From the NCBI GenBank assembly GCA_016795245.1, contig JAEUIA010000091.1, forward strand, positions 1 through 64,000: a stretch of DNA of 64,000 nt. The letters are read 5' to 3'. The notes beneath the pieces were generated by a model. It was not told where the DNA came from, did no database searches, and saw nothing but the letters and a program-made list of their open reading frames with translations. Below are positions 46,819 through 59,270 of the stretch, piece after piece. Position 1 is the stretch's first letter, and each line of letters starts with the position of its first letter. Origin of the DNA: Planctomycetota bacterium. Lineage in GTDB: Bacteria; Planctomycetota; UBA1135; GCA-002686595. Made by a program: the position numbers and the translations under genes.

Positions 46819-47649
46819 TTACGTCAGGCGCGCACCGCAGCGCTTGCAGTGCAAGGCATCGGCATCATGCCGCGTCGCGTCACAGCTGCGGCACGCTCTC
46901 GCAGACAGGGAACGATCGCCGCCTTGCGTCAGCTCCGCCGTGATGATGCCGGTCGGCACGGCGATGATGCCGTAGCCCAAGACCATGATGACGGCCGCCA
47001 CAGCCTGGCCCAGGTTCGTCTGCGGAGCGATGTCGCCGTACCCGACCGTCGTGAGCGTGACCACCGCCCAGTACACGCCGCGCGGGATGCTGGTGAAGCC
47101 GCTGTCCGGACCTTCGATCAAGTACATCAGCGAGCCGAATACGACGACCAACGTGAACACCGCGAAGATGAACACCGAGATCTTGCGCCGGCTGGCGACG
47201 AGCGCGCGCAGCAGGGTCTCGGATTCACGCACATAGTGAGCGAGTTTCAGAACCCTGAACACGCGCAAGATCCGCAGCGTGCGGATCACGAGCAAGGCCT
47301 GCGCGCCGGGGACCAGCACACTCGCGTAGGTCGGGATGATCGAAAGCAGATCGACGAGACCGAAGAAACTCCGCGCGTAGCGCAGCGGTCGTTCCGTGCA
47401 CATGAGACGCAGCGCGTACTCGATCGTGAACAGGATCGTGAAGGCCCACTCGGCGACGCGCAGCAGCTCGCCGTGTCGCTCTCTCACGGTGGTGATGCTC
47501 TCCAGCATCACCGTCAGGATGCTGAGCAAGATCGCCGCGATCAGGATGACGTCGAAGGCTTTGCCCGCCGGCGTGTCGGCCTCGAAGATGATCCGGTAGT
47601 ACCTGGCGCGCCACCCCTCCGCGCCGCGCTCTTGTCCCCCGCCTGCCAT
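46819..47649 (-). CDS. Voltage-gated potassium-channel-like ion transporter with C-terminal zinc ribbon
   Basis: The 276-residue protein has six membrane helices. S4 carries regularly spaced arginines (R123, R126, R129, R132 in RTLRILRVFRVLK), and the pore loop has the potassium selectivity filter TVGYGD at 201-206. After S6 (about 215-240) comes a short tail with C253, C256, C268 and C271, spaced as a zinc ribbon (RSCDATRHDADALHCKRC). The channel should gate K+ by voltage, and the ribbon may add metal, redox or partner control. It lies 48 bp downstream of the mscS gene at 47698-48624. Confidence 0.92.
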   Translation of the reverse strand: MAGGGQERGAEGWRARYYRIIFEADTPAGKAFDVILIAAILLSILTVMLESITTVRERHGELLRVAEWAFTILFTIEYALRLMCTERPLRYARSFFGLVDLLSIIPTYASVLVPGAQALLVIRTLRILRVFRVLKLAHYVRESETLLRALVASRRKISVFIFAVFTLVVVFGSLMYLIEGPDSGFTSIPRGVYWAVVTLTTVGYGDIAPQTNLGQAVAAVIMVLGYGIIAVPTGIITAELTQGGDRSLSARACRSCDATRHDADALHCKRCGARLT

Positions 47650-47697: not shown

Positions 47698-48624
47698 CTA
47701 CTTCGGATTCCGCAGCTCGATCGGCGGCAGACCGACGACCTCGAACGTCGCCGACGCCAGGGCAACACGGCCCCCGGTTCGCTCCACATCGTCCAGAATC
47801 CGTGTGAACAACTGGTCCTTCGTGAGCCGCCGCTTCCGGTAATAGACGACGTAGCGCACCGTGAATTCGATCCAGTTGTCGTTCGCGACCATGGTGACGA
47901 GTGGATCGACCGACGCATTTTCGATGCGAAACTTGGATACCATCCCGCGCCAGGCTTCGCGCGCACTGTCGACGTAGTCGCCGGCCACATCCTTCACAGC
48001 AACTTCCAGGATGCGGCGCGCCTCGGCGCGATCGCTGCCGAAGCGAATGGGAACGGTGATCTCGTCCCAGAGGAACTCGAAGTCGCCCGAGTAATTGAAG
48101 ACCGGTTCCTTGAACACGAAACTGTTGGCGATGCGCACGACGCGGCCGTTGTAGAGGTCGCCGTTCACCCACTGTCCGAGCTCCATGAGCGTCGTGCGCA
48201 ACACGCCGATGTCGATCACATCGCCGCGAATGCCGCCGAGTTGCACGCGATCACCGGTTCGGTAGAAGCCGCCGAACGAGATGGCGACCCAACCGGCGAT
48301 ACTGGCGATCATCTCCTGCAGTGCGAAGGCGATACCCACGCCTGCGACACCGAAGACGACCGACAGTTCTCCGAGCCTGTAGTCGAACACCACGACCAGA
48401 TAGAAAAGCGCCAGGAGATAGGCCGCAAACGTCATCAGCTTGCGCATCCGGTAGCGCGTGTCGACGTTTTCGACTCGCGCGACCACCGCCCGACGAGCGA
48501 AGCGCACGATCACGACGATCACCAACACTCCCACCACCGCCGCGACCAGCTTGGCCACGATCGGGTCGCTGAGGAGCCGCATCACGTGGCCTTCGATGGT
48601 TTCGTCTTGGGGGCTGGTCGACAT
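47698..48624 (-). CDS. MscS family mechanosensitive channel
   Basis: The 308-residue protein has three or more N-terminal membrane helices and the MscS core: VVFGVAGVGIAFALQEMIAS (pore helix TM3), GWVAISFGGFYRTGDRV (start of the beta domain), and a C-terminal alpha/beta domain that widens the cytosolic vestibule. The channel opens under membrane tension to release solutes. The start at 48624 (MSTSPQDETIEG) is preferred to a far upstream frame of basic composition. It is read with the potassium-channel-like gene downstream and diverges from the ATPase-MscS operon, sharing a region that holds a 10-bp inverted repeat. Confidence 0.92.
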   Translation of the reverse strand: MSTSPQDETIEGHVMRLLSDPIVAKLVAAVVGVLVIVVIVRFARRAVVARVENVDTRYRMRKLMTFAAYLLALFYLVVVFDYRLGELSVVFGVAGVGIAFALQEMIASIAGWVAISFGGFYRTGDRVQLGGIRGDVIDIGVLRTTLMELGQWVNGDLYNGRVVRIANSFVFKEPVFNYSGDFEFLWDEITVPIRFGSDRAEARRILEVAVKDVAGDYVDSAREAWRGMVSKFRIENASVDPLVTMVANDNWIEFTVRYVVYYRKRRLTKDQLFTRILDDVERTGGRVALASATFEVVGLPPIELRNPK

Positions 48625-48654
48625 GTGCGGTGCTCTGCAGGGTGATCCCACGCC

Positions 48655-48720
48655 CCGATCAAGAGTGCGCGTTCGGGGTTTATACAACCTGCACGGCGGC
48701 GTGGCTCGCTTCTTGATCGG
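48655..48720. promoter_or_regulatory. Spaced inverted repeat in divergent channel-gene control region
   Basis: CCGATCAAGA (48655-48664) and TCTTGATCGG (48711-48720) are perfect 10-base inverted repeats separated by 46 bases, between the divergent starts 48624 and 48832. A -10-like TATACA lies at 48681. The arrangement could hold one regulator that acts on both MscS loci. The rest of 48625-48831 shows no gene. Confidence 0.45.
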
Positions 48721-48831
48721 CAGCTCGCCCCGGCCGCGGCGCACGCGGTTCTCGGCGCTTAATCGCCGCGTATCCCCGCGTACCCTGAGCGCGTCCGGAA
48801 TCGCGGCGCCCATTCCGGTTACAACTCAGGC

Positions 48832-50046
48832 ATGCCCTCAAGAAAAAGCCGGCATTTCAACGCACTCTGGTCCAGGGTCCGTGGCCTGGTCGGCGCGGAG
48901 GTGACCCCCGTTTCCGAGGATGTGGCGCTCGAGGCGGCCGCGCTGCCTTCGTATGAGGAGTTGCAAACGGGTTGTGCGGAGTTGCCTGCGCAGTACGCCG
49001 ACCTGTTCCTGCGAGAGCGCAGCGGTCCCGAGGTTTCGATCAAGCTTCAGCAGTCCAACCTGAAGACCTTGGACGACGCGCTGCTCGCGTGGCTGGGTGG
49101 GATGCCGACCACATTGGCTTTGATCGGTCCCTCGGGCAGCGGCCTTGGATCGACCCTCGCCGCCTTCGCGACCGATGTCGAGTCGCGCGGACTCCGCGCG
49201 ACGACGGTCGTGCCGCAAGCACGCGTCGATTCGGCGGCCGCACTGATTGCACAGCTGGTCGATGCACTATCACTGCCGCCTGCGATCGCAAGTTTGGACG
49301 AACTCGTCGATGAACTGGTTCGTGATCAGCAGCGCGTGGTCTTGATCGAAGATGCGCAGCGCTGGTTCGTGCGCCGGATGGGCGTGCGCGCGGCGCTGGC
49401 CACGCTCGTCGAGTTGATCCTACGCACACGCAGGCGGTGCCTCTGGGTCGTGTCCGCCGGGAGCCTGGCGTGGTCTCGACTTGACGCACTGGGAGGCTTG
49501 TCGTCGGTGATGTCCGAGGTCATCGAATGCGAAACTCCGGACGCCGACGAGTTGCGAGCCATCGTCCTGACGCGGCACTCACTGAGCGGATTGGAACTCC
49601 ACGTGGCCGGCGGCCCCGACAAGCCGCCGCTGCTTCCGCCCACGCCTGAATACGAAAAGGCTCTGGCAGAGTACTTCAGCAAGCTGCACACCCTGTGCGG
49701 CGGCCATCCGACGACAGCCATCTACTACTGGCGCATGTCGGTCGAAGCGAGTGAGTCCGACCAAGCGCTGATGCTGACGCGTTGTCCGCGGCTGGTCTTG
49801 GGGGACATCGGGTCGATCGCGACGCTTCCGCGGCTGATCCTTGCGGAGCTCAGCGTTCACGGCGGACTCGTCATCGACTACGTGGCCGACATCTTCCCGG
49901 TTTCGACCGACGAAGCGCGCCAATACCTCGAACGCTTGCGTCGCTCCGGGCTCGTCGAGCGTGATGATGACGGTGAATACACGCTCAACCCGCTCGTGGG
50001 CCCGCATGTCTATCCGGCGCTTTCACGCGCACACCTGCTCTACTGA
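48832..50046 (+). CDS. P-loop ATPase-like protein with defective Walker A and C-terminal winged helix, in an operon with mscS
   Basis: The 404-residue protein has an AAA/STAND-like nucleotide-binding fold. The P-loop region is LALIGPSGSGLGSTLAAF (about 96-112), but the usual GKS/T is replaced: residue 105 is Leu and no Lys is present. A Walker B-like strand RVVLIEDAQRWF follows at 168-179, and a sensor-type LWVVSAGS later. The C-terminal 60 residues look like a winged helix (LAELSVHGGLVIDYVADIF, LRRSGLVERDDDGEY). The protein probably binds a nucleotide or partner without classical hydrolysis. It lies 2 bp upstream of an mscS gene. It may gate or assemble that channel, or regulate it, but no such system is known to me. 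Confidence 0.75.
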   Translation: MPSRKSRHFNALWSRVRGLVGAEVTPVSEDVALEAAALPSYEELQTGCAELPAQYADLFLRERSGPEVSIKLQQSNLKTLDDALLAWLGGMPTTLALIGPSGSGLGSTLAAFATDVESRGLRATTVVPQARVDSAAALIAQLVDALSLPPAIASLDELVDELVRDQQRVVLIEDAQRWFVRRMGVRAALATLVELILRTRRRCLWVVSAGSLAWSRLDALGGLSSVMSEVIECETPDADELRAIVLTRHSLSGLELHVAGGPDKPPLLPPTPEYEKALAEYFSKLHTLCGGHPTTAIYYWRMSVEASESDQALMLTRCPRLVLGDIGSIATLPRLILAELSVHGGLVIDYVADIFPVSTDEARQYLERLRRSGLVERDDDGEYTLNPLVGPHVYPALSRAHLLY

Positions 50047-50048
50047 CC

Positions 50049-50834
50049 ATGCCTGACGAGAAGATCCTCGAGCTGTTCTCGGTTGCCAACGCGCTGTCGT
50101 TGTCAGCCCTGCTCGTCGCCACGTTGCTCAGCGTGACGATCTACAGGCGCCTGGCGGATTTCGTCGCAAGGAAGCTTCCGAAGTGGCGCTTCCAGATTCT
50201 CGGCAGCGTACCGATACTGCGCCTGATCGCCTGGCTCCTGGCCACTCTCATCGCGGTGTTCGGAGTGCTGAAGCCACCGCAAGAGAGCTTGATCGCTGTC
50301 GCAGCATCGCTCGGCCTGGCTTTGGGTCTCGCCATTCAAGACATCGTCAAGAACGTACTCGCGGGGATCGTCATGATCTTTCAGCGCCCTCTCACCGTCG
50401 GCGACATGGTGTCCGCCGGTGGTCACTACGGTGAGGTCGTCGGCATGGACCTGATGGCCATTCGCCTGCGAACATTCGACGACAGCATCGTCACCATTCC
50501 GAACGCCCTGGCCTGTCAAGAAGCGCTGTTGAACTCGAATTCCGGGAGTGTCCATGAGCTGGTCAAGGTGGAGTTCACCGTGCTCGGAGACGTGGACGTG
50601 GCACAGGTGACCCGGCTGGCGTCAGAGGCAGCGGCGTGTTCGCCGTACGTGTTTTTGAAGTCGCCGATCTTCGTGATCGTTGAAGATCGCACGGAGCGTC
50701 GTCGCGCGACCCGCTTCACGGTCAAGGCCTACGTCATCGACGTCAGGCTGGAGCGCGCGATGGCGACAGACGTGTTCACGCGCATCACCCGCACCGTGGC
50801 TCTGCCCGATACGCTGGTCATGGACGTCGCCTGA
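50049..50834 (+). CDS. MscS family channel, partner of the upstream ATPase
   Basis: The 261-residue protein is a short MscS homologue with three membrane helices (about 10-35, 52-75, 80-105). The pore helix is VAASLGLALGLAIQDIVKNV, followed by LAGIVMIFQRPLTVGDMVSAG and the beta domain with DSIVTIPNALACQEAL. The C-terminal alpha/beta domain is present. Only 2 bp separate it from the ATPase gene, so the two products are probably made together. Its last 17 bases overlap the convergent DUF2156 gene. Confidence 0.92.
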   Translation: MPDEKILELFSVANALSLSALLVATLLSVTIYRRLADFVARKLPKWRFQILGSVPILRLIAWLLATLIAVFGVLKPPQESLIAVAASLGLALGLAIQDIVKNVLAGIVMIFQRPLTVGDMVSAGGHYGEVVGMDLMAIRLRTFDDSIVTIPNALACQEALLNSNSGSVHELVKVEFTVLGDVDVAQVTRLASEAAACSPYVFLKSPIFVIVEDRTERRRATRFTVKAYVIDVRLERAMATDVFTRITRTVALPDTLVMDVA

Positions 50835-52215
50835 ATTCGCGCCGCACTCCGCGCCACAGGACTGCTGCCGCGAAGAGCGGAGCCGCGCAGCCGATGATCA
50901 CGATGCCCGCATCGCCAGTCCCGCGCAGGCGCGGTACGTTCCACAATGCCGCTTGTGCGAGGGTCAAGACTGCATCGCAGCTGACGGCGATCGCGGTCGC
51001 CACTGCCAGTGTTCGCTGGAAACGGTTCGCCAGGCTGATCATCGCCGCGCACACGACGACATCGAAAGCGATCCAAGCGTACTTGATCTCCGGAGACGGA
51101 AACCACAGCGCGCCGTCGGACAACGCCAAGGCGACGGTCCATGGAATCAGCATCAAAGCCAGGATCCACAACACCAAGGCCGGTCCCTCGATCAACGTGC
51201 GCACGGCGAAGCTGGCGATGCCGCCTCCGGCGAACGCGCGCAGCGCATCGAGCACGGCGAGCGGCGTGCTGACGTCGCGCGGGTGCGTCACGAACACCGG
51301 CTCCCAGGCAACAGGCGCGAGCCTGGCTTTGAAGCGATGCAACCCGGCGAAATCGAAGAGCGGTTTGCCGACGTTGCCGATGCGTCGCATCCAACTCGGA
51401 ACAGGGCCGGCTAGAGGCGCGAGACCAAGCGTGACCCAGGTACTGCCCTCCCCTGCCGCCTGTTCCATCACTGCATCCACGAGCAACTCCACGGTTCCGT
51501 TCGGCGCATCGGCAGCGCGAATCAAGTCCTCGATGAACCACCCGTTGCGCGCGTACACGGGGACAGCGGACACGAACCCGATGACTTCGCCCGCGCGTTC
51601 GGCGACGAAGGACCGACGCTCTTCGGCGAACGAGAATGGTTGGACATGCACGAGGAACGCCATCGGCGACATCCTCCGATTTCCGAGCCAGCGCTCGATC
51701 AGACGCTCGATGGAGCGCCGCATCGAGGAATTCGGATCGGTCAGTTCGGTCGCAGCCAACCGACGCACGACGACAGTCTTGTTGCGCGCACGATTGAGCT
51801 GATAGCGCAGCGAACTCGAAGCCTGTGCGTTTGCGTGCCAGGTGCTCGGATCCCAGATCGGCTGAAGCCCGACTTGCGTACTCACCATCTCGGGCAGTTC
51901 GGCCAGGCGCTGTTGTGACGCAAAGAACACGCAGCGTCTCCCGGCCCTTCGCGCCGCTTCCACGAAGCGCGCCGCCACAGCACCACAATTTTCAGGAGAC
52001 GCGAGCGGCGCTCCGGCGGCAACCCATGCCCGTCCGGTGTCGGCGTACGCAACGCACGCCTCGGGTGAATCCCACCAGTACGACAGCCCGTCCTCGAGTA
52101 CCTGAAAGGAAGTGGTGTTGAAGCCGTGTCGCCGCAAGAGCTGCAGCACGCGCAGGCGTTCCGTTGCTAGCGACTGCGCAGCGACGGTCTGTGTGGGGTT
52201 GGTTCCGGAATTCAT
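50818..52215 (-). CDS. MprF-like protein with DUF2156 (lysyltransferase-type) domain and membrane helices
   Basis: The 465-residue protein starts with a DUF2156 domain (about 20-320), the double-GNAT fold used by phosphatidylglycerol lysyltransferase MprF to move an amino acid from aminoacyl-tRNA to a lipid. Visible blocks are YWWDSPEACVAYADTGRAWV, SLRYQLNRARNKTV, SFVAERAGEVIGFVSAVPV and FDFAGLHRFKARLAPVAWEP. About four membrane helices follow at the C-terminus, the reverse of MprF order. It may modify envelope lipids. The ATG at 52215 is chosen because the upstream frame is basic and lacks conserved features. Confidence 0.82.
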   Translation of the reverse strand: MNSGTNPTQTVAAQSLATERLRVLQLLRRHGFNTTSFQVLEDGLSYWWDSPEACVAYADTGRAWVAAGAPLASPENCGAVAARFVEAARRAGRRCVFFASQQRLAELPEMVSTQVGLQPIWDPSTWHANAQASSSLRYQLNRARNKTVVVRRLAATELTDPNSSMRRSIERLIERWLGNRRMSPMAFLVHVQPFSFAEERRSFVAERAGEVIGFVSAVPVYARNGWFIEDLIRAADAPNGTVELLVDAVMEQAAGEGSTWVTLGLAPLAGPVPSWMRRIGNVGKPLFDFAGLHRFKARLAPVAWEPVFVTHPRDVSTPLAVLDALRAFAGGGIASFAVRTLIEGPALVLWILALMLIPWTVALALSDGALWFPSPEIKYAWIAFDVVVCAAMISLANRFQRTLAVATAIAVSCDAVLTLAQAALWNVPRLRGTGDAGIVIIGCAAPLFAAAVLWRGVRREFRRRP

Positions 52216-52394
52216 CGTGCTCGCCGACGGAGGTTCTACTTCTTCGTGGCAGGTTCGTGGTCCGCGAGGTCGCAAGACTCGCCGCCCTGCGTGTCGTGAC
52301 CGCAACCTGCTGTAGATGGGTTTTGCTCGCTACACTCGTCGCCCATGGGTGGTGTACGCATCCGCGCTTCGCCACGAGAAAGTCCGGCCCTCAG

Positions 52395-53825
52395 TTGTCA
52401 CTGAAGATCAAGCTCCTGCTCTGCCTCGGGTTCCTCGTGTTGCTGCTCGGCTTCGTGTTCGCGGGCATCATCATCGGCGGCACGCGGCGCGCGACCGAGG
52501 GGCTGGAGAAGATTCGTGCGCTGGGTGAGCCGACGCGTGTCGCAGACATCGCTTTCGATGCGGAAGTGCCGCGCAGCGACTTGCACGAACGCTTGAAACG
52601 ATTCGGTTCCATCCATGATCGGTCGGTCACGATTTCGCTCGGCGACGATTCGGTGGCCGACGAACTGACGGAACTCGAGCATTGGCCTGAAGGACGGTCA
52701 GCCGCGCCGATCGTCGCGGAGTTCTTGAGTTGCATATGGAAGGAGAAGCCGGCGCCCGAGGAGTACTCGTGGTCCGACCTCCTCGAGGCCTGTCTGGACC
52801 CACGCAGACTCGATCAGCTGAGTGAGTGCGAGCGCCGTGGACTCGCTGCGCTGCGCTTGCTGAACGAACCCTGCGTTCCCGCTGCGCTCGAGGTCTGCGC
52901 CGCGACGCGCGAGACCGGTGAGTTCGCCGCGCGCGAGTGGCGACCTGCCCTGGGCCTTCTGCAGATGGACGACGCGCCGGCCCTGTATTCGACCACGATC
53001 ACCCTCTCGGCCACGATCCCGGCGCTACTGGAAGACTCGAGCACAGAGGAAGCGCGCGCCAGAACGGACAGCATCCTCACGCTCGCCTGGAACACGCGCG
53101 GCATTCCCAATGTGATGGCTCACCTATTCTGGATGCACACCGTGCATCACGGCCTCATCGGCTGCAGATACGTGATGGCTTCGCGCGCCGAGACGCTCGA
53201 CTGGAGCCGTGCACGCGCGTTGCTGGCTGACTTCGACTCGCGCGCCAACTTCGAACGTGCGCTGATCGGCGAGCGCGCCTTCACCATCGAGTTGTTTCAG
53301 GCTCTGGCCGACGGCACGCTCTCGACCGAGAGTGACGACTTCATCGCGCCGGGCGAGATGCCCTTGTTCTGGAAGATCTCGAACCAATACGACCTGGCGC
53401 TGTACCTCGAAATCTTCGAAACGGCGTTAGCGCGCTCGCGCGCGGAAGAATGGAGCCCCATGCCGGACGCCGTCGATCCCGCGCGTTTCACGTGGTGGGC
53501 TCCGATGTCCAAGTTGCTCGTGCCGAATTTGGATCGACAGCGCGCGCTCGCCCTGGTGTTGGACGCGGAAATCCGCGTCACACGCGCAGCGCTTGAAGCC
53601 TACGAGCACGGGGCAGCAGCCGCGCAGGAACTGGCGGCGATACTGCGCGATCCCTTCGACGGTCAACCGCTGCGAACGCGTCTAGAGGATGGCGTCCTCG
53701 TGCTGTGGTCCATCGGTCCCGATCAGATCGACGATGGCGGTTCTTCGGAGGCTGGAGAGCCCGAACAAGCGGGCCGCAGATTCGACGACGCCCGAGATAT
53801 CGTCTGTCGCGTGCGGCTGCGCTGA
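52395..53825 (+). CDS. Membrane-anchored hypothetical protein
   Basis: The product of about 476 residues has one N-terminal membrane helix (LLLCLGFLVLLLGFVFAGII) and a large helical exported part with many Glu/Leu repeats. The end has LWSIGPDQIDDGG and RFDDARDIVCRV, a pattern that I associate with planctomycete exported proteins and pilin-like C-termini. I do not recognise the family. The start is probably TTG at 52395, just before the membrane helix; a frame continues upstream to 52164 but lacks suitable features. It diverges from the DUF2156 gene. Confidence 0.7.
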   Translation: MSLKIKLLLCLGFLVLLLGFVFAGIIIGGTRRATEGLEKIRALGEPTRVADIAFDAEVPRSDLHERLKRFGSIHDRSVTISLGDDSVADELTELEHWPEGRSAAPIVAEFLSCIWKEKPAPEEYSWSDLLEACLDPRRLDQLSECERRGLAALRLLNEPCVPAALEVCAATRETGEFAAREWRPALGLLQMDDAPALYSTTITLSATIPALLEDSSTEEARARTDSILTLAWNTRGIPNVMAHLFWMHTVHHGLIGCRYVMASRAETLDWSRARALLADFDSRANFERALIGERAFTIELFQALADGTLSTESDDFIAPGEMPLFWKISNQYDLALYLEIFETALARSRAEEWSPMPDAVDPARFTWWAPMSKLLVPNLDRQRALALVLDAEIRVTRAALEAYEHGAAAAQELAAILRDPFDGQPLRTRLEDGVLVLWSIGPDQIDDGGSSEAGEPEQAGRRFDDARDIVCRVRLR

Positions 53826-53878: not shown

Positions 53879-54472
53879 ATGACGTTGGAAGCTGATTCCG
53901 ATCCGGCCGACGCACGCGAGGGATCGAACGCGGAAGTGGTCGCCACGCTCGTCGAGAACCATCGGCGATTCCTGACCTATCTGGAGAAGCGCCTGGGCAA
54001 TCGCGCGCTGGCCGAGGACATCCTGCAAGCGGCGTTCGTGCGCGGCATCGAACACGCAGGCTCCGTGCGTTCGAACGAGTCAGCAGTCGGATGGTTCTTT
54101 CGCGTGCTGCGCAATGCGATCATCGATCACCATCGGCGCGCCGACATCTCCGGTCGTGCGACTGCGGACCTGGACCCGGAACGCGAACCGGCCCAGCCCG
54201 ACGACGAGACGACGAACGAAATCTGCCGCTGCATCCTCGGTCTGGCTGACACACTGAAACCCGAATACGCGCTGGCGCTGAGACGAGTCGAAGTCGAAGG
54301 ACTGTCCGTGCAGGACTTCGCCGCTGAAACGGGAATCAGCGCGAACAACGCCGCCGTGCGCCTCTACCGCGCGCGTGAAGCGCTGAAGAAGCGCGTCGGC
54401 GCGACCTGCCGCACCTGCGCCGACCACGGGTGCCTGGACTGCACGTGTGGCTCCAAAGGCACGCGCCGGTAG
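53879..54472 (+). CDS. ECF sigma factor with Cys-rich C-terminal tail
   Basis: The 197-residue protein has sigma region 2 (about 25-90, LEKRLGNRALAEDILQAAFV and WFFRVLRNAIIDHHRR) and region 4 (about 115-172, EVEGLSVQDFAAETGISANN). The tail CRTCADHGCLDCTCG has Cys at 177, 180, 185, 188 and 190. Such a tail marks an ECF group thought to sense metals directly in place of an anti-sigma factor. The gene lies 73 bp upstream of a copper ATPase, which fits metal-responsive control. A small hairpin (53857-53871) lies in its leader. Confidence 0.88.
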   Translation: MTLEADSDPADAREGSNAEVVATLVENHRRFLTYLEKRLGNRALAEDILQAAFVRGIEHAGSVRSNESAVGWFFRVLRNAIIDHHRRADISGRATADLDPEREPAQPDDETTNEICRCILGLADTLKPEYALALRRVEVEGLSVQDFAAETGISANNAAVRLYRAREALKKRVGATCRTCADHGCLDCTCGSKGTRR

Positions 54473-54545
54473 GATCAGACAAGTTCGAAGTGAGGTGTAA
54501 GGATTCGTGGGCCGCTCCGTCTGCGTGACTGAGCCTGTAGAACCC

Positions 54546-56951
54546 ATGGACCGCACACACATGTCCCACCAACACGCGCACGCTCCGTCACCCTCACGCA
54601 CGGCGCCCGATCCCGTCTGCGGAATGACCGTCGACCCCGCCAAGGCGCGCGGCGGCGCTCTCGTGCACGAAGGCGTCGAGTACGCGTTCTGCAGTGCCGG
54701 GTGTAGGGCGCAATTCGACGCGAATCCGGCGCAGTTCCACAAACCCGCGTCGGCCGCGAGTCATTCCTGCTGCAGTACTCCAAGCAGGGACGCGGACGAG
54801 AAGCAGTCCGAGACTCCAGTTGCTCCACCAAGTGCAGCACCGGGCGCGATCTACACCTGCCCGATGCATCCGGAGATCGAGCAAGTCGGTCCCGGTGATT
54901 GTCCACTCTGCGGCATGGCGCTCGAGCCGAAATTCGTCAGCGCGGAAGCTCCAGACGATTCCGAGCTGCGCGACATGTCGCGACGTTTCTGGATCAGCCT
55001 CGCGCTCGCACTGCCGACGCTGATCCTCGCCATGGCGGACATGATCCCAGGGCTCGCCGGACGCATTCCGGCCGGACCGTCCGCCTGGTGGCAGTTCGCT
55101 TTGGCCACTCCGGTCGTCCTGTGGGGCGGGTGGCCGTTTTTCGTGCGCGGTTGGGCTTCGATCAGGCTGCGCAGCGCGAACATGTTCACGCTGATCGCGC
55201 TGGGGACGAGCGCGGCGTACCTGTTCAGCCTCTTCGTGCTGCTGTTTCCGGCCTGGATTCCGCATGCGCTTCAGCACGATGGAGTCTCGCCGGTCTACTT
55301 CGAGAGCGCGGCCGTCATCGTCACGCTCGTGCTGCTCGGGCAAGTGCTCGAACTGCGCGCGCGTTCAGCGACATCCGGCGCCATTCGCGCGCTGCTCGGG
55401 ATGAGCCCGAAAGTCGCTCGACGTGTGCGCGACGACGGCAGCGAAGAGGAGATCGCGCTGGAACACATCCGACTCGGTGATCGGCTGCGCGTACGCCCTG
55501 GTGAGCGCTTGCCGGTCGACGGAGTCGTGACCGAGGGTGCCAGTTCGGTCGACGAATCGATGCTCACCGGCGAACCCATCCCCGTCGAAAAGCACACGGG
55601 CGAGAAGGTCACGGGAGGGACGCTGAACGGCTCCGGCAGTTTCGTCATACGGGCCGAACTCGTGGGTGCCGAGACCTTGCTGGCGCGCATCGTCGCACAA
55701 GTCGGCGAAGCGCAGCGCAGTCGGGCGCCCGTGCAGAAGCTGGTCGACAAGATCTCGGCCTGGTTCGTGCCGACCGTCGTCGCCGTGGCCGTCATCACCG
55801 CAGCCGTGTGGTGGTTCGTCGGACCTGAGCCGCGCCTGGCTCATGCTCTCGTCAACGCCGTCGCGGTCTTGATCATCGCCTGCCCCTGTGCCCTTGGACT
55901 CGCGACTCCGATGTCGGTGATGGTCGGCATCGGTCGGGGTGCAGAGCTCGGGGTCCTGGTGCGCGATGCGGAAGCGCTGGAACGACTGGAGAAGATCGAC
56001 ACGCTGGTCGTCGACAAGACCGGCACGCTGACGGAAGGCAAGCCGCGGCTGATCTCGATCGTGACTTCCGGCGGCAGCGACGAGAACACGCTGCTCTCCG
56101 CCGCGGGTGCCTTGGAGCGCGCGAGCGAACACCCGCTCGCGGCGGCCGTCCTCGCCGGGCTGCGCGAACGCGGCATTCCCCTCGCCGACGCCGAGGATTT
56201 TGCCGCGCATCACGGGCGCGGCGTCACCGGGATTGTCAACGGGCGCTCCGTTGCACTGGGCAACGCGCGCTTGTTCGACGAGCTCGGTATCGGACTCGGG
56301 ACTTTGGCCGAGCGCGCCGAGGAATTGCGGCGCGCGGGCCAGACCGTCGTATTCGTCGCCGTCGATGCGCGCGCTGCGGGTTTGCTCGGTGTCGCGGATC
56401 CGATCAAGGAGTCCTCGCGCGACGCGCTGGAAGGTCTGCGAGAGAGCGGAATTCAAGTCATCCTCGCCAGCGGTGACGCACGCACGACGGCGGAGGCCGT
56501 GGCTCGCGAACTCGGTTTGACCGAGGTCCACGCCGAGATGCAGCCCGCCGACAAGGCCGCGCTGATCCAACGGCTCAAGCAATCCGGCCGCCGCGTGGCC
56601 ATGGCCGGTGACGGCGTGAACGACGCACCTGCGCTCGCCGGCGCGGATGTCGGCATCGCGATGGGCACCGGCAGCGACGTCGCGCTCGAGAGTGCGGCGA
56701 TTACGCTGGTCAAGGGCGACTTGCGCGGCATCGCGCGCGCGCGCCAGATCTCGCACGCGACGATGAGGAACATCCGTCAAAACCTGGTGTTCGCGTTCCT
56801 CTACAACGCGCTCGGAGTGCCGATCGCCGCGGGTGTGCTCTACCCGGTATTCGGGTTGCTGCTCTCCCCGATGATCGCCGGCCTTGCAATGAGCTTGTCA
56901 TCGGTCTCGGTCATCACGAACGCGCTCAGGTTGCGGCGCGCGGCGAGCTGA
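54546..56951 (+). CDS. copA: Copper-translocating P1B-type ATPase (CopA-like) with YHS and heavy-metal-binding N-terminal domains
   Basis: The protein of about 801 residues starts with a His-rich leader ([10 protein letters not shown]), a YHS domain ([12 protein letters not shown] and [10 protein letters not shown]) and a heavy-metal-binding motif ([20 protein letters not shown]). The P1B core has CPC at 446-448 ([13 protein letters not shown]), DKTGT with the phosphorylated Asp at 490, the SEHPLAAAV motif and [10 protein letters not shown]. Helix motifs [11 protein letters not shown] and [14 protein letters not shown] indicate Cu(I) specificity. It should export copper from the cytosol. The start may be ATG 54546 or 54561, or GTG 54507. 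It follows the Cys-tailed sigma factor gene. Confidence 0.95.
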
Positions 56952-57446: not shown

Positions 57447-59270
57447 ATGATCGATCGTCGAACCACTCCCGCGGCCGCCGCTGTGCTGCTCGCGTGGTTG
57501 CGTGTAGCTCTCGCAGCATTCTTGATCCTGACGCCGGCGAGCGCCCTCGTCGAGGATCCGAACACCACCGAAGCCGCGAGCAGCGGGAGCACGGAGCCCG
57601 CAGCTCAGTCACCGACGGGAGAGAAGCCGCCGGAGGACCCGTGGAATCGCGGTACACCGCGCAGCTCACTGTACGGCTATCTGGTTGCGTGTCGCGAAGC
57701 ACGCTGGGCGGACGCGGCGAATTACCTCGACCTTTCGCAGATCGCAGCGACCGCACGTACGCAACGCGGGCCGGTGCTGGCGCGGCAGCTGAAGTTCATC
57801 CTCGATCGTGAACTGTGGGTGAACCTCGACGAAGTCAGCGACGAGCCTCACGGCAATTCCGAGGATCGTCTGCCCGAGGGGCGCGAACTGGTCGGGACGA
57901 TCCCGCGCGAACGCGGTGACTTCAACGTGTTCATGGAGCGCGTCCCACGCGAAGACGGCGTGCTCATCTGGATGCTGTCGAGTGCAGCGATCAGCCGCGT
58001 CCCGAGCCTGTACGACGAGATCGGGCTGCCCAAGGTCATCGAAGATCTGCCCAGAGTCTTCGTGGACGTGCGCTTGCTCGAGATCGCGCTGTGGCAGTGG
58101 ATCGGGCTGATTCTGCTGACCGTCGCCGGATGGCTCGTGGCCTGGATGGCGTCGTCGGTCGTCGTGCGCGTACTCAAGCCGCTCACTCTCAAGTCGGAGA
58201 CCGACGTCGACGATCGTCTGCTGGCGCTGATGGTCGGGCCTGTACGGCTGCTGATGACGATCGGCGTTTTCAACGCGGGATTGCACTTCCTGCGCTTGTC
58301 CGTGCCTGCCAACAACTTCGCTCGCGAAGTGAGCAAGTTCCTGGTGATTGCGGGCATCGCGTGGTTCGTGATGCGCGTCATCGACCTGTTCGGCACGATC
58401 ATGAAGGAGCGCTTCATCAGTGCCGGTCAAGCCGGCGCTGCGCACCTAGTGCCGGTCGGCGCACGCGCCATCAAGGTCACGGTGTTCCTGCTGACAGTGC
58501 TCGCGACACTCGACACGTTCGGATTCGACGTGACTGCGCTCATCGCCGGTCTGGGTGTCGGCGGTCTGGCTGTGGCGTTGGCTGCGCAAAAGACGGTGGA
58601 AAACGTCTTCGGCGGCGTCTCGGTGCTCATCGATCAGCCGGTGAGACCCGGCGACTTCTGCAAGTTCGGCGACAAGTCCGGCACGGTCGAAGACATCGGA
58701 CTGCGCTCGACGCGCATCCGCACTCTGGATCGAACGGTGGTCTCCGTTCCGAACTCCGAGTTCTCGAACATCCAGATCGAAAACCTGGCCCCGCGCGATC
58801 GCATCCGATTGATCACGACTTTGGGTCTGCGCTACGAGACGACGCCGGACCAGTTGCGCCATGTGATCGCGGGCCTGCGTCGCATCCTGCTCTCGCACCC
58901 CAAGGTGCTGCCGGAACCGTTGCGCGTGCGTTTCGTCGGATTCGGAGCGTACTCGTTGGACATCGAGATGTTCGCCTACGTCAACACCCAAGACATCAAC
59001 GAGTTTCACGCGGTGCGCGAAGACGTGTTCCTGCGCGTGATGGATGTCGTCGCGCAGAGCGGCAGCGGCTTTGCATTCCCCTCCAACACGACCTATCTGG
59101 CTCGCGACGGTGGGCTGGACCTCGAACGCGGCAAGGCGGCCGAGGCCGAAATCGCACGGTTGCGTGCCGAGGGCAAGCTCATGTATCCCAATTTCTCGGC
59201 CGCTGAGATCGCAGCGATGGACGACACGCTCGATTGGCCGCCGAAGGGCTCCGTGGTTGCGTCGCCGTGA
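57447..59270 (+). CDS. Large MscS family mechanosensitive channel with periplasmic domain
   Basis: The 607-residue protein has a signal-like N-terminus, a soluble region of about 170 residues, and five membrane helices from about 205. The MscS core is ALIAGLGVGGLAVALAAQKT followed by VENVFGGVSVLIDQPVRPGD and RTVVSVPNSEFSNIQIENLA. A C-terminal extension of about 50 residues (LERGKAAEAEIARLRAEGKL) is helical. It is longer than the other two MscS homologues here and probably answers a different stress threshold. GGAGGA precedes the ATG. It diverges from the GlsB-like gene with 144 bp between. Confidence 0.93.
   Translation: MIDRRTTPAAAAVLLAWLRVALAAFLILTPASALVEDPNTTEAASSGSTEPAAQSPTGEKPPEDPWNRGTPRSSLYGYLVACREARWADAANYLDLSQIAATARTQRGPVLARQLKFILDRELWVNLDEVSDEPHGNSEDRLPEGRELVGTIPRERGDFNVFMERVPREDGVLIWMLSSAAISRVPSLYDEIGLPKVIEDLPRVFVDVRLLEIALWQWIGLILLTVAGWLVAWMASSVVVRVLKPLTLKSETDVDDRLLALMVGPVRLLMTIGVFNAGLHFLRLSVPANNFAREVSKFLVIAGIAWFVMRVIDLFGTIMKERFISAGQAGAAHLVPVGARAIKVTVFLLTVLATLDTFGFDVTALIAGLGVGGLAVALAAQKTVENVFGGVSVLIDQPVRPGDFCKFGDKSGTVEDIGLRSTRIRTLDRTVVSVPNSEFSNIQIENLAPRDRIRLITTLGLRYETTPDQLRHVIAGLRRILLSHPKVLPEPLRVRFVGFGAYSLDIEMFAYVNTQDINEFHAVREDVFLRVMDVVAQSGSGFAFPSNTTYLARDGGLDLERGKAAEAEIARLRAEGKLMYPNFSAAEIAAMDDTLDWPPKGSVVASP

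Follow-up and report, generated by a model that had tools for sequence, protein, structure and literature searches.

A predicted ORC/Cdc6-type AAA+ module forms a conserved gene pair with a distinct clade of MscS channels

Genes and features of the locus

The window (the whole 64-kb stretch of planctomycete DNA that was analysed) contains two neighboring plus-strand genes, one for an ATPase-like protein and one for a short MscS channel, which we call MscS-A (Table 1). The ATPase stop and the mscS-A start are 2 bp apart. The gene for a second channel of a different type, MscS-B, is transcribed divergently from the ATPase gene; the start given for it is our choice, the longest ORF beginning at 48813. 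No sigma-70-like site was found in the intergenic region between these two genes. A voltage-gated-type (Kv-like) ion channel gene follows MscS-B and may be a further member of a local ion-transport cluster; its product ends in a zinc-ribbon-like tail. The genome carries four MscS genes, three of them within the window (MscS-A, MscS-B and a third about 7 kb downstream), and a single copy of the ATPase gene.

On the other side of the pair, an MprF-type gene is convergent with mscS-A and overlaps its end by 17 bp. The window also contains a 553-aa ORF without any Pfam match, which has an ECF sigma factor gene and a P-type metal ATPase gene as neighbors.

Table 1. Coordinates of the features discussed. 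Positions without a locus prefix refer to the window.
Feature	Position	Strand	Remarks and evidence
ATPase-like ORF, predicted AAA+ (ORC/Cdc6-type) module, soluble subtype	48832-50046	+	404 aa, no TM segment
Walker A, degenerate, GPSGSGLGST (Leu for Lys)	49126-49155	+	residues 99-108; sequence, family alignment
Walker B, VVLIED, kept	49336-49353	+	residues 169-174; sequence, family alignment
Winged-helix domain, C-terminal	49822-50028	+	residues ~331-399; AlphaFold2 model, family alignment
MscS-A channel gene, partner of the ATPase	50049-50834	+	261 aa; Pfam, structure alignment, tree
Second channel gene, MscS-B (divergent)	47698-48636	-	Pfam, identity
Intergenic region between MscS-B and ATPase genes	48637-48831		~195 bp
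Voltage-gated-type (Kv-like) ion channel	46819-47649	-	48 bp downstream of MscS-B, same strand
Third window MscS	57447-59270	+	607 aa, N-terminal extension
MprF-type gene (phosphatidylglycerol lysyltransferase C-terminal)	50818-52305	-	
ORF without Pfam match	52164-53825	+	553 aa
ECF sigma factor	53879-54472		
P-type metal ATPase	54507-56951		
Membrane protein with C-terminal Usp domain	L062:4103-6304		Myxococcota
Membrane protein with C-terminal Usp domain	L070:1-606		Myxococcota
Membrane protein with C-terminal Usp domain	L071:5019-6379		Myxococcota
Split ATPase, Halomonas plasmid	L018:4252-5399		two reading frames
AA_permease-AAA+ fusion, Plesiocystis pacifica	L166:2471-7969	-	

Fold and family of the two proteins

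The P-loop of the window ATPase departs from the consensus GxxxxGK[ST], with Leu at the Lys position. Pfam returned a weak match to AAA_22 alone (E 0.0011, below the cut-off). AlphaFold2, given an alignment of 43 sequences, produced a model (mean pLDDT 86) with a P-loop core, a lid and, at the C-terminus, a winged helix. These are the elements of ORC/Cdc6-type ATPases, and the best PDB matches of the model by Foldseek were archaeal Cdc6/Orc proteins (E about 7e-10 to 1e-9, TM about 0.5). Close to the winged helix lies RAHLLY, the window protein's version of the C-terminal tail of the family. On this model, the window ATPase is predicted to be an AAA+ module of the ORC/Cdc6 type. The sequence-only reading of this DNA had described a P-loop protein that lacks the catalytic Lys and has a Walker B motif and a winged-helix tail, 2 bp from a short mscS gene, and in each of these points it was correct. 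It had also suggested a comparison with ORC and STAND ATPases, of which the ORC half stands; on the STAND side, NACHT and nSTAND profiles match few relatives and match them weakly, and Pfam detected no repeat or variable sensor domain of the STAND kind in the window protein. Pfam likewise found no Na_H_Exchanger domain in this protein and, in the pair as a whole, only AAA_22 and MS_channel_2nd, with no RCK/TrkA_N regulatory domain or K+ channel subunit. When the soluble copies were tested for an amphipathic N-terminal membrane helix, the window copy scored no better than shuffled sequences.

MscS-A matches MS_channel_2nd (PF00924, E 3.2e-17) and aligns to MscS structures over residues 13-192, with the beta-domain and the preceding pore helices present. 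Judged by these alignments, it is a true MscS homologue.

The ATPase and its channel are a conserved unit

The pair recurs at roughly 100 loci in bacteria and one archaeon, its carriers being Myxococcota, Alpha- and Gammaproteobacteria, a haloarchaeon and the window's own phylum, Planctomycetota. We searched from both sides. An alphaproteobacterial channel alignment scanned against a species-genome collection returned 57 loci, five of them ordinary MscS and one of the other 52 without upstream sequence. Among the 51 clade loci that remained, the ATPase gene lay directly upstream in about 50, including two where it consists of broken or partial frames; the exception (L064) has an MscS-A of the clade and no ATPase upstream. 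In the reverse direction, an ATPase profile had matches in 70 of 189 Myxococcota genomes, and MscS-A was the adjacent downstream gene in all of the 30 best Myxococcota loci. The genome of Plesiocystis (G715) encodes 12 MscS proteins in 10.6 Mb, and at 3/3 loci it is an MscS that follows the ATPase. Therefore the ATPase and MscS-A genes are a real and old two-gene unit, not a chance association, and the earlier suggestion that they belong together is confirmed.

Plasmids carry the unit as well. A tblastn search of plasmids with the ATPase gave three weak matches (Novosphingobium pLA3 and PP1Y, and Halomonas), each followed by an MscS gene, and the best plasmid MscS matches led to two further pairs, in Caulobacter and in the archaeon Salinirubellus. 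The ATPase of the Halomonas plasmid is split over two reading frames beside an intact MscS gene and is either a pseudogene or a sequencing error.

Within Planctomycetota, a single-sequence ATPase search of the window's own class found nothing reliable, its 16-18 bit matches being chance. A five-row ATPase profile found three genomes besides the window's; MscS is directly downstream in two of them, whereas the contig of the third stops just past the ATPase. This makes 4 of 392 sampled genomes of the phylum, the window's own included; scans of two classes gave 2 of 12 and 2 of 249.

At 42 of 55 loci the ATPase stop codon lies in an ATGA, GTGA or TTGA context in which the following gene can begin with an overlap of 4 bases, which suggests translational coupling; the downstream starts overlap this stop or lie very close to it. 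Clustering of the flanking genes revealed no widespread conserved neighbor beyond the ATPase, MscS-A and MscS-B. In three Myxococcota loci the module adjoins a transporter-like membrane protein that carries a Usp domain at its C-terminus.

The linked channels share an origin

In a maximum-likelihood tree, the ATPase-linked MscS proteins form one clade (support 96/90) that takes in the window, archaeal and Myxococcota channels and is separate from 33 other MscS, most of which come from the same genomes as the linked channels; one clade row labelled as an ordinary MscS is a Plesiocystis gene present twice. The linked channels therefore have a common origin. The channels of L122 and L123, which follow ATPases of the third architecture described below, are very divergent and their placement is unsure.

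A Caulobacter plasmid carries a three-gene module of ATPase, MscS-A and MscS-B, and the window's MscS-B shares 54% identity with the second MscS of that module. At 8 of 58 other module loci an MscS-B scores above 250 bits, and in two of these 8 (L056 and L070) it is divergent and upstream exactly as in the window. Its relatives are found on many plasmids and we therefore regard MscS-B as an optional companion.

Three architectures of the ATPase

Three different architectures were found. Type I proteins, of about 830-1350 aa, have an N-terminal coiled-coil region and ~4 TM helices followed by the AAA+ module, and all 49 aligned sequences keep the Walker A Lys; for a few of these rows the alignment block was clipped and Walker A was read outside that alignment. 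An MscK-like N-terminal domain was considered for type I and rejected, as Pfam gave it no support.

Type II proteins are soluble, like that of the window. In none of the seven copies (L091 being assigned to the type of L028) is the Lys present: Leu, Arg or His takes its place, except where the whole loop is missing. Types I and II share a Trp after the third strand, a motif resembling GNP-x-x-A-x-x-x-W, and a less strictly conserved C-terminal R-x-x-L-L tail.

Type III proteins reach 1350-1900 aa. An N-terminal Na_H_Exchanger domain is present in 15 of 20 and an AA_permease domain in one, and MscS is directly next in 18, the exceptions being L156, which has no adjoining MscS, and L173, where it is 2 kb off. 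The Lys is kept in 19 of the 20, often as GKR. In these proteins (L154-L173) Walker A often reads GxxGxGKR, an unusual variant with Arg at the Ser/Thr position. In the AA_permease protein (L166) a long linker connects the transporter with the AAA+ module, and the MscS gene overlaps the end of the fusion; by eye the transporter resembles cation-chloride cotransporters.

Loss of the Walker A Lys therefore correlates with the soluble form. In the module tree the deep branches of the type II copies have no firm order, so the seven losses are not to be counted as independent events. The "broken Walker A" noted at the outset is real for the window copy, although it is limited to the soluble subtype and most relatives keep the Lys. 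As the Lys is lost in all soluble copies, hydrolysis is presumably not needed there, and "ATP-driven" cannot be a general mechanism. The window module, being soluble and Lys-less, is probably a pseudo-ATPase variant that serves as a non-hydrolysing scaffold or sensor binding the channel.

A proposed role in ion and turgor balance

The nearly obligate MscS partner, the exchanger fusions and the ion-transport neighbors point to ion and turgor balance. Among 85 flanking genes, in raw counts, there were eight for MscS, four for Na/H exchangers, two for CorA and two for ion channels. We lean, by a modest degree, toward a model that makes the AAA+ module a gating or licensing factor for its MscS-A in ion and turgor homeostasis. 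Assembled on the cytoplasmic face of MscS-A, the module would read the nucleotide or ionic state and adjust the opening of the channel, which would keep solute release through MscS in step with the uptake or exchange of ions. Relatives carry this module as part of a Na+/H+ exchanger, of a permease, or of a membrane protein that has a large coiled-coil region; the window's version would bind the channel as a separate, soluble scaffold or sensor. Nucleotide- or partner-dependent gating, which the sequence-only reading had raised as a possibility, is the most natural interpretation. The data establish the pairing, the channel clade, the fold and the architectures, whereas physical contact, gating, the signal behind it and any part in balancing turgor and ions are inferred.

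Alternative explanations

The linkage could instead reflect assembly or expression control. One possibility is that the AAA+ module, rather than gating MscS-A at work, is an assembly or quality-control factor: it would see to the insertion and assembly of MscS-A, or to its removal, and in type III would do the same for the exchanger. AAA+ proteins often do such work, the operon is tight, the pairing is one to one and types I and III are anchored in the membrane. We nevertheless consider this unlikely, because Pfam found no protease or chaperone-type domain, other MscS channels need no such factor, a covalent fusion to an exchanger is better suited to regulation, and loss of Walker A in type II removes the motor function.

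Another possibility is a transcription regulator that contacts DNA through its winged helix and does no more than control the mscS operon or else MscS-B, the divergent gene. The C-terminal winged helix, its weak matches to ArsR, MarR and TrmB models and the divergent arrangement in the window are consistent with this; however, winged helices are standard in ORC and STAND ATPases, the module sits behind TM domains in types I and III, and a repressor has no reason to be fused to an exchanger. This explanation appears distinctly improbable.

It could also be speculated, as in the earlier reading, that the pair is an abortive phage defence in which the ATPase would detect an infection and kill the host cell by opening the MscS pore. 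Some members are indeed weakly akin to STAND/NACHT ATPases, a membrane-opening effector would fit that logic, the distribution is patchy and some copies are on plasmids. On the other hand, PADLOC gave no match above noise for three window proteins (the sole match, AbiEi at E 0.0055, lay over the ATPase winged helix, with none for the channels), and a scan of viral contigs contained no homologue. Defence-like genes among the module's neighbors are few and scattered and do not amount to a defence island; the neighbors are often ion transporters, and so are the fusion partners, among them the Na+/H+ exchangers. The module's frequency in Myxococcota also argues against it, as does the fact that the window protein has no domain of its own for sensing. 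We therefore rejected the defence-island idea and regard phage defence as very improbable indeed.

Hitch-hiking of unrelated genes, by chance or on a mobile island, would suit the rarity of the pair in Planctomycetota and can practically be dismissed, as it is contradicted by the linkage found from both sides in Myxococcota, Alpha- and Gammaproteobacteria and a haloarchaeon, where all other neighbors change.

Relation to known systems and significance

MscS proteins are textbook pores opened by membrane tension alone, and to our knowledge the known members (E. coli MscS, YnaI, MscK/MscM) function without a dedicated ATPase gene. The window channel is homologous to these, but the linked channels are a clade of their own. 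As for the module, archaeal Cdc6/Orc proteins are its best fold match, and its relatives weakly match ORC-CDC6-like, NACHT and nSTAND profiles; TnsC and STAND/NACHT ATPases are more distant kin. Unlike ORC/Cdc6 and TnsC, it has channels and transporters as gene neighbors or fusion partners and is not tied to replication or transposition, and, again unlike ORC/Cdc6-type ATPases, it has a soluble subtype that has lost Walker A.

Two known systems offer partial parallels. In KtrAB/TrkAH K+ uptake a separate cytosolic, nucleotide-binding RCK ring is encoded with the membrane channel; in working principle this is the nearest known kind of system, but the unit does not belong to that family, as RCK has a Rossmann fold rather than an AAA+ fold and the channel is not an MscS. 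The bCNG channels have an MscS core with a fused cyclic-nucleotide domain as sensor. Both they and, on our model, the present unit combine an MscS core with a ligand-responsive part, whereas here the sensor would be a separate AAA+ protein. We found no description of the ATPase-MscS unit in the literature searched (open PMC papers). Each part comes from a known family; what appears to be undescribed is their combination, how widely it is distributed, and the fusions to exchangers. The divergent MscS-B, the adjoining Kv-like channel and the relatives with an intact Walker A go beyond what had first been noticed at this locus.

Regulation of MscS-A by its AAA+ partner could be one instance of a general prokaryotic cell-volume controller, in which an energy- or ion-sensing AAA+ module couples a fused uptake or exchange transporter to an MscS release valve and hydrolysis-dead soluble versions still control the channel; we put this wider proposal forward tentatively and hold it to be possible rather than probable. 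The unit is an unusual case in that the P-loop Lys is missing from every copy without a membrane anchor, and it offers clear, testable partners for electrophysiology. If gating by the module is correct, a whole branch of the MscS family would be under nucleotide- or partner-dependent control, and bacteria would tie ion exchange and emergency release into one unit.
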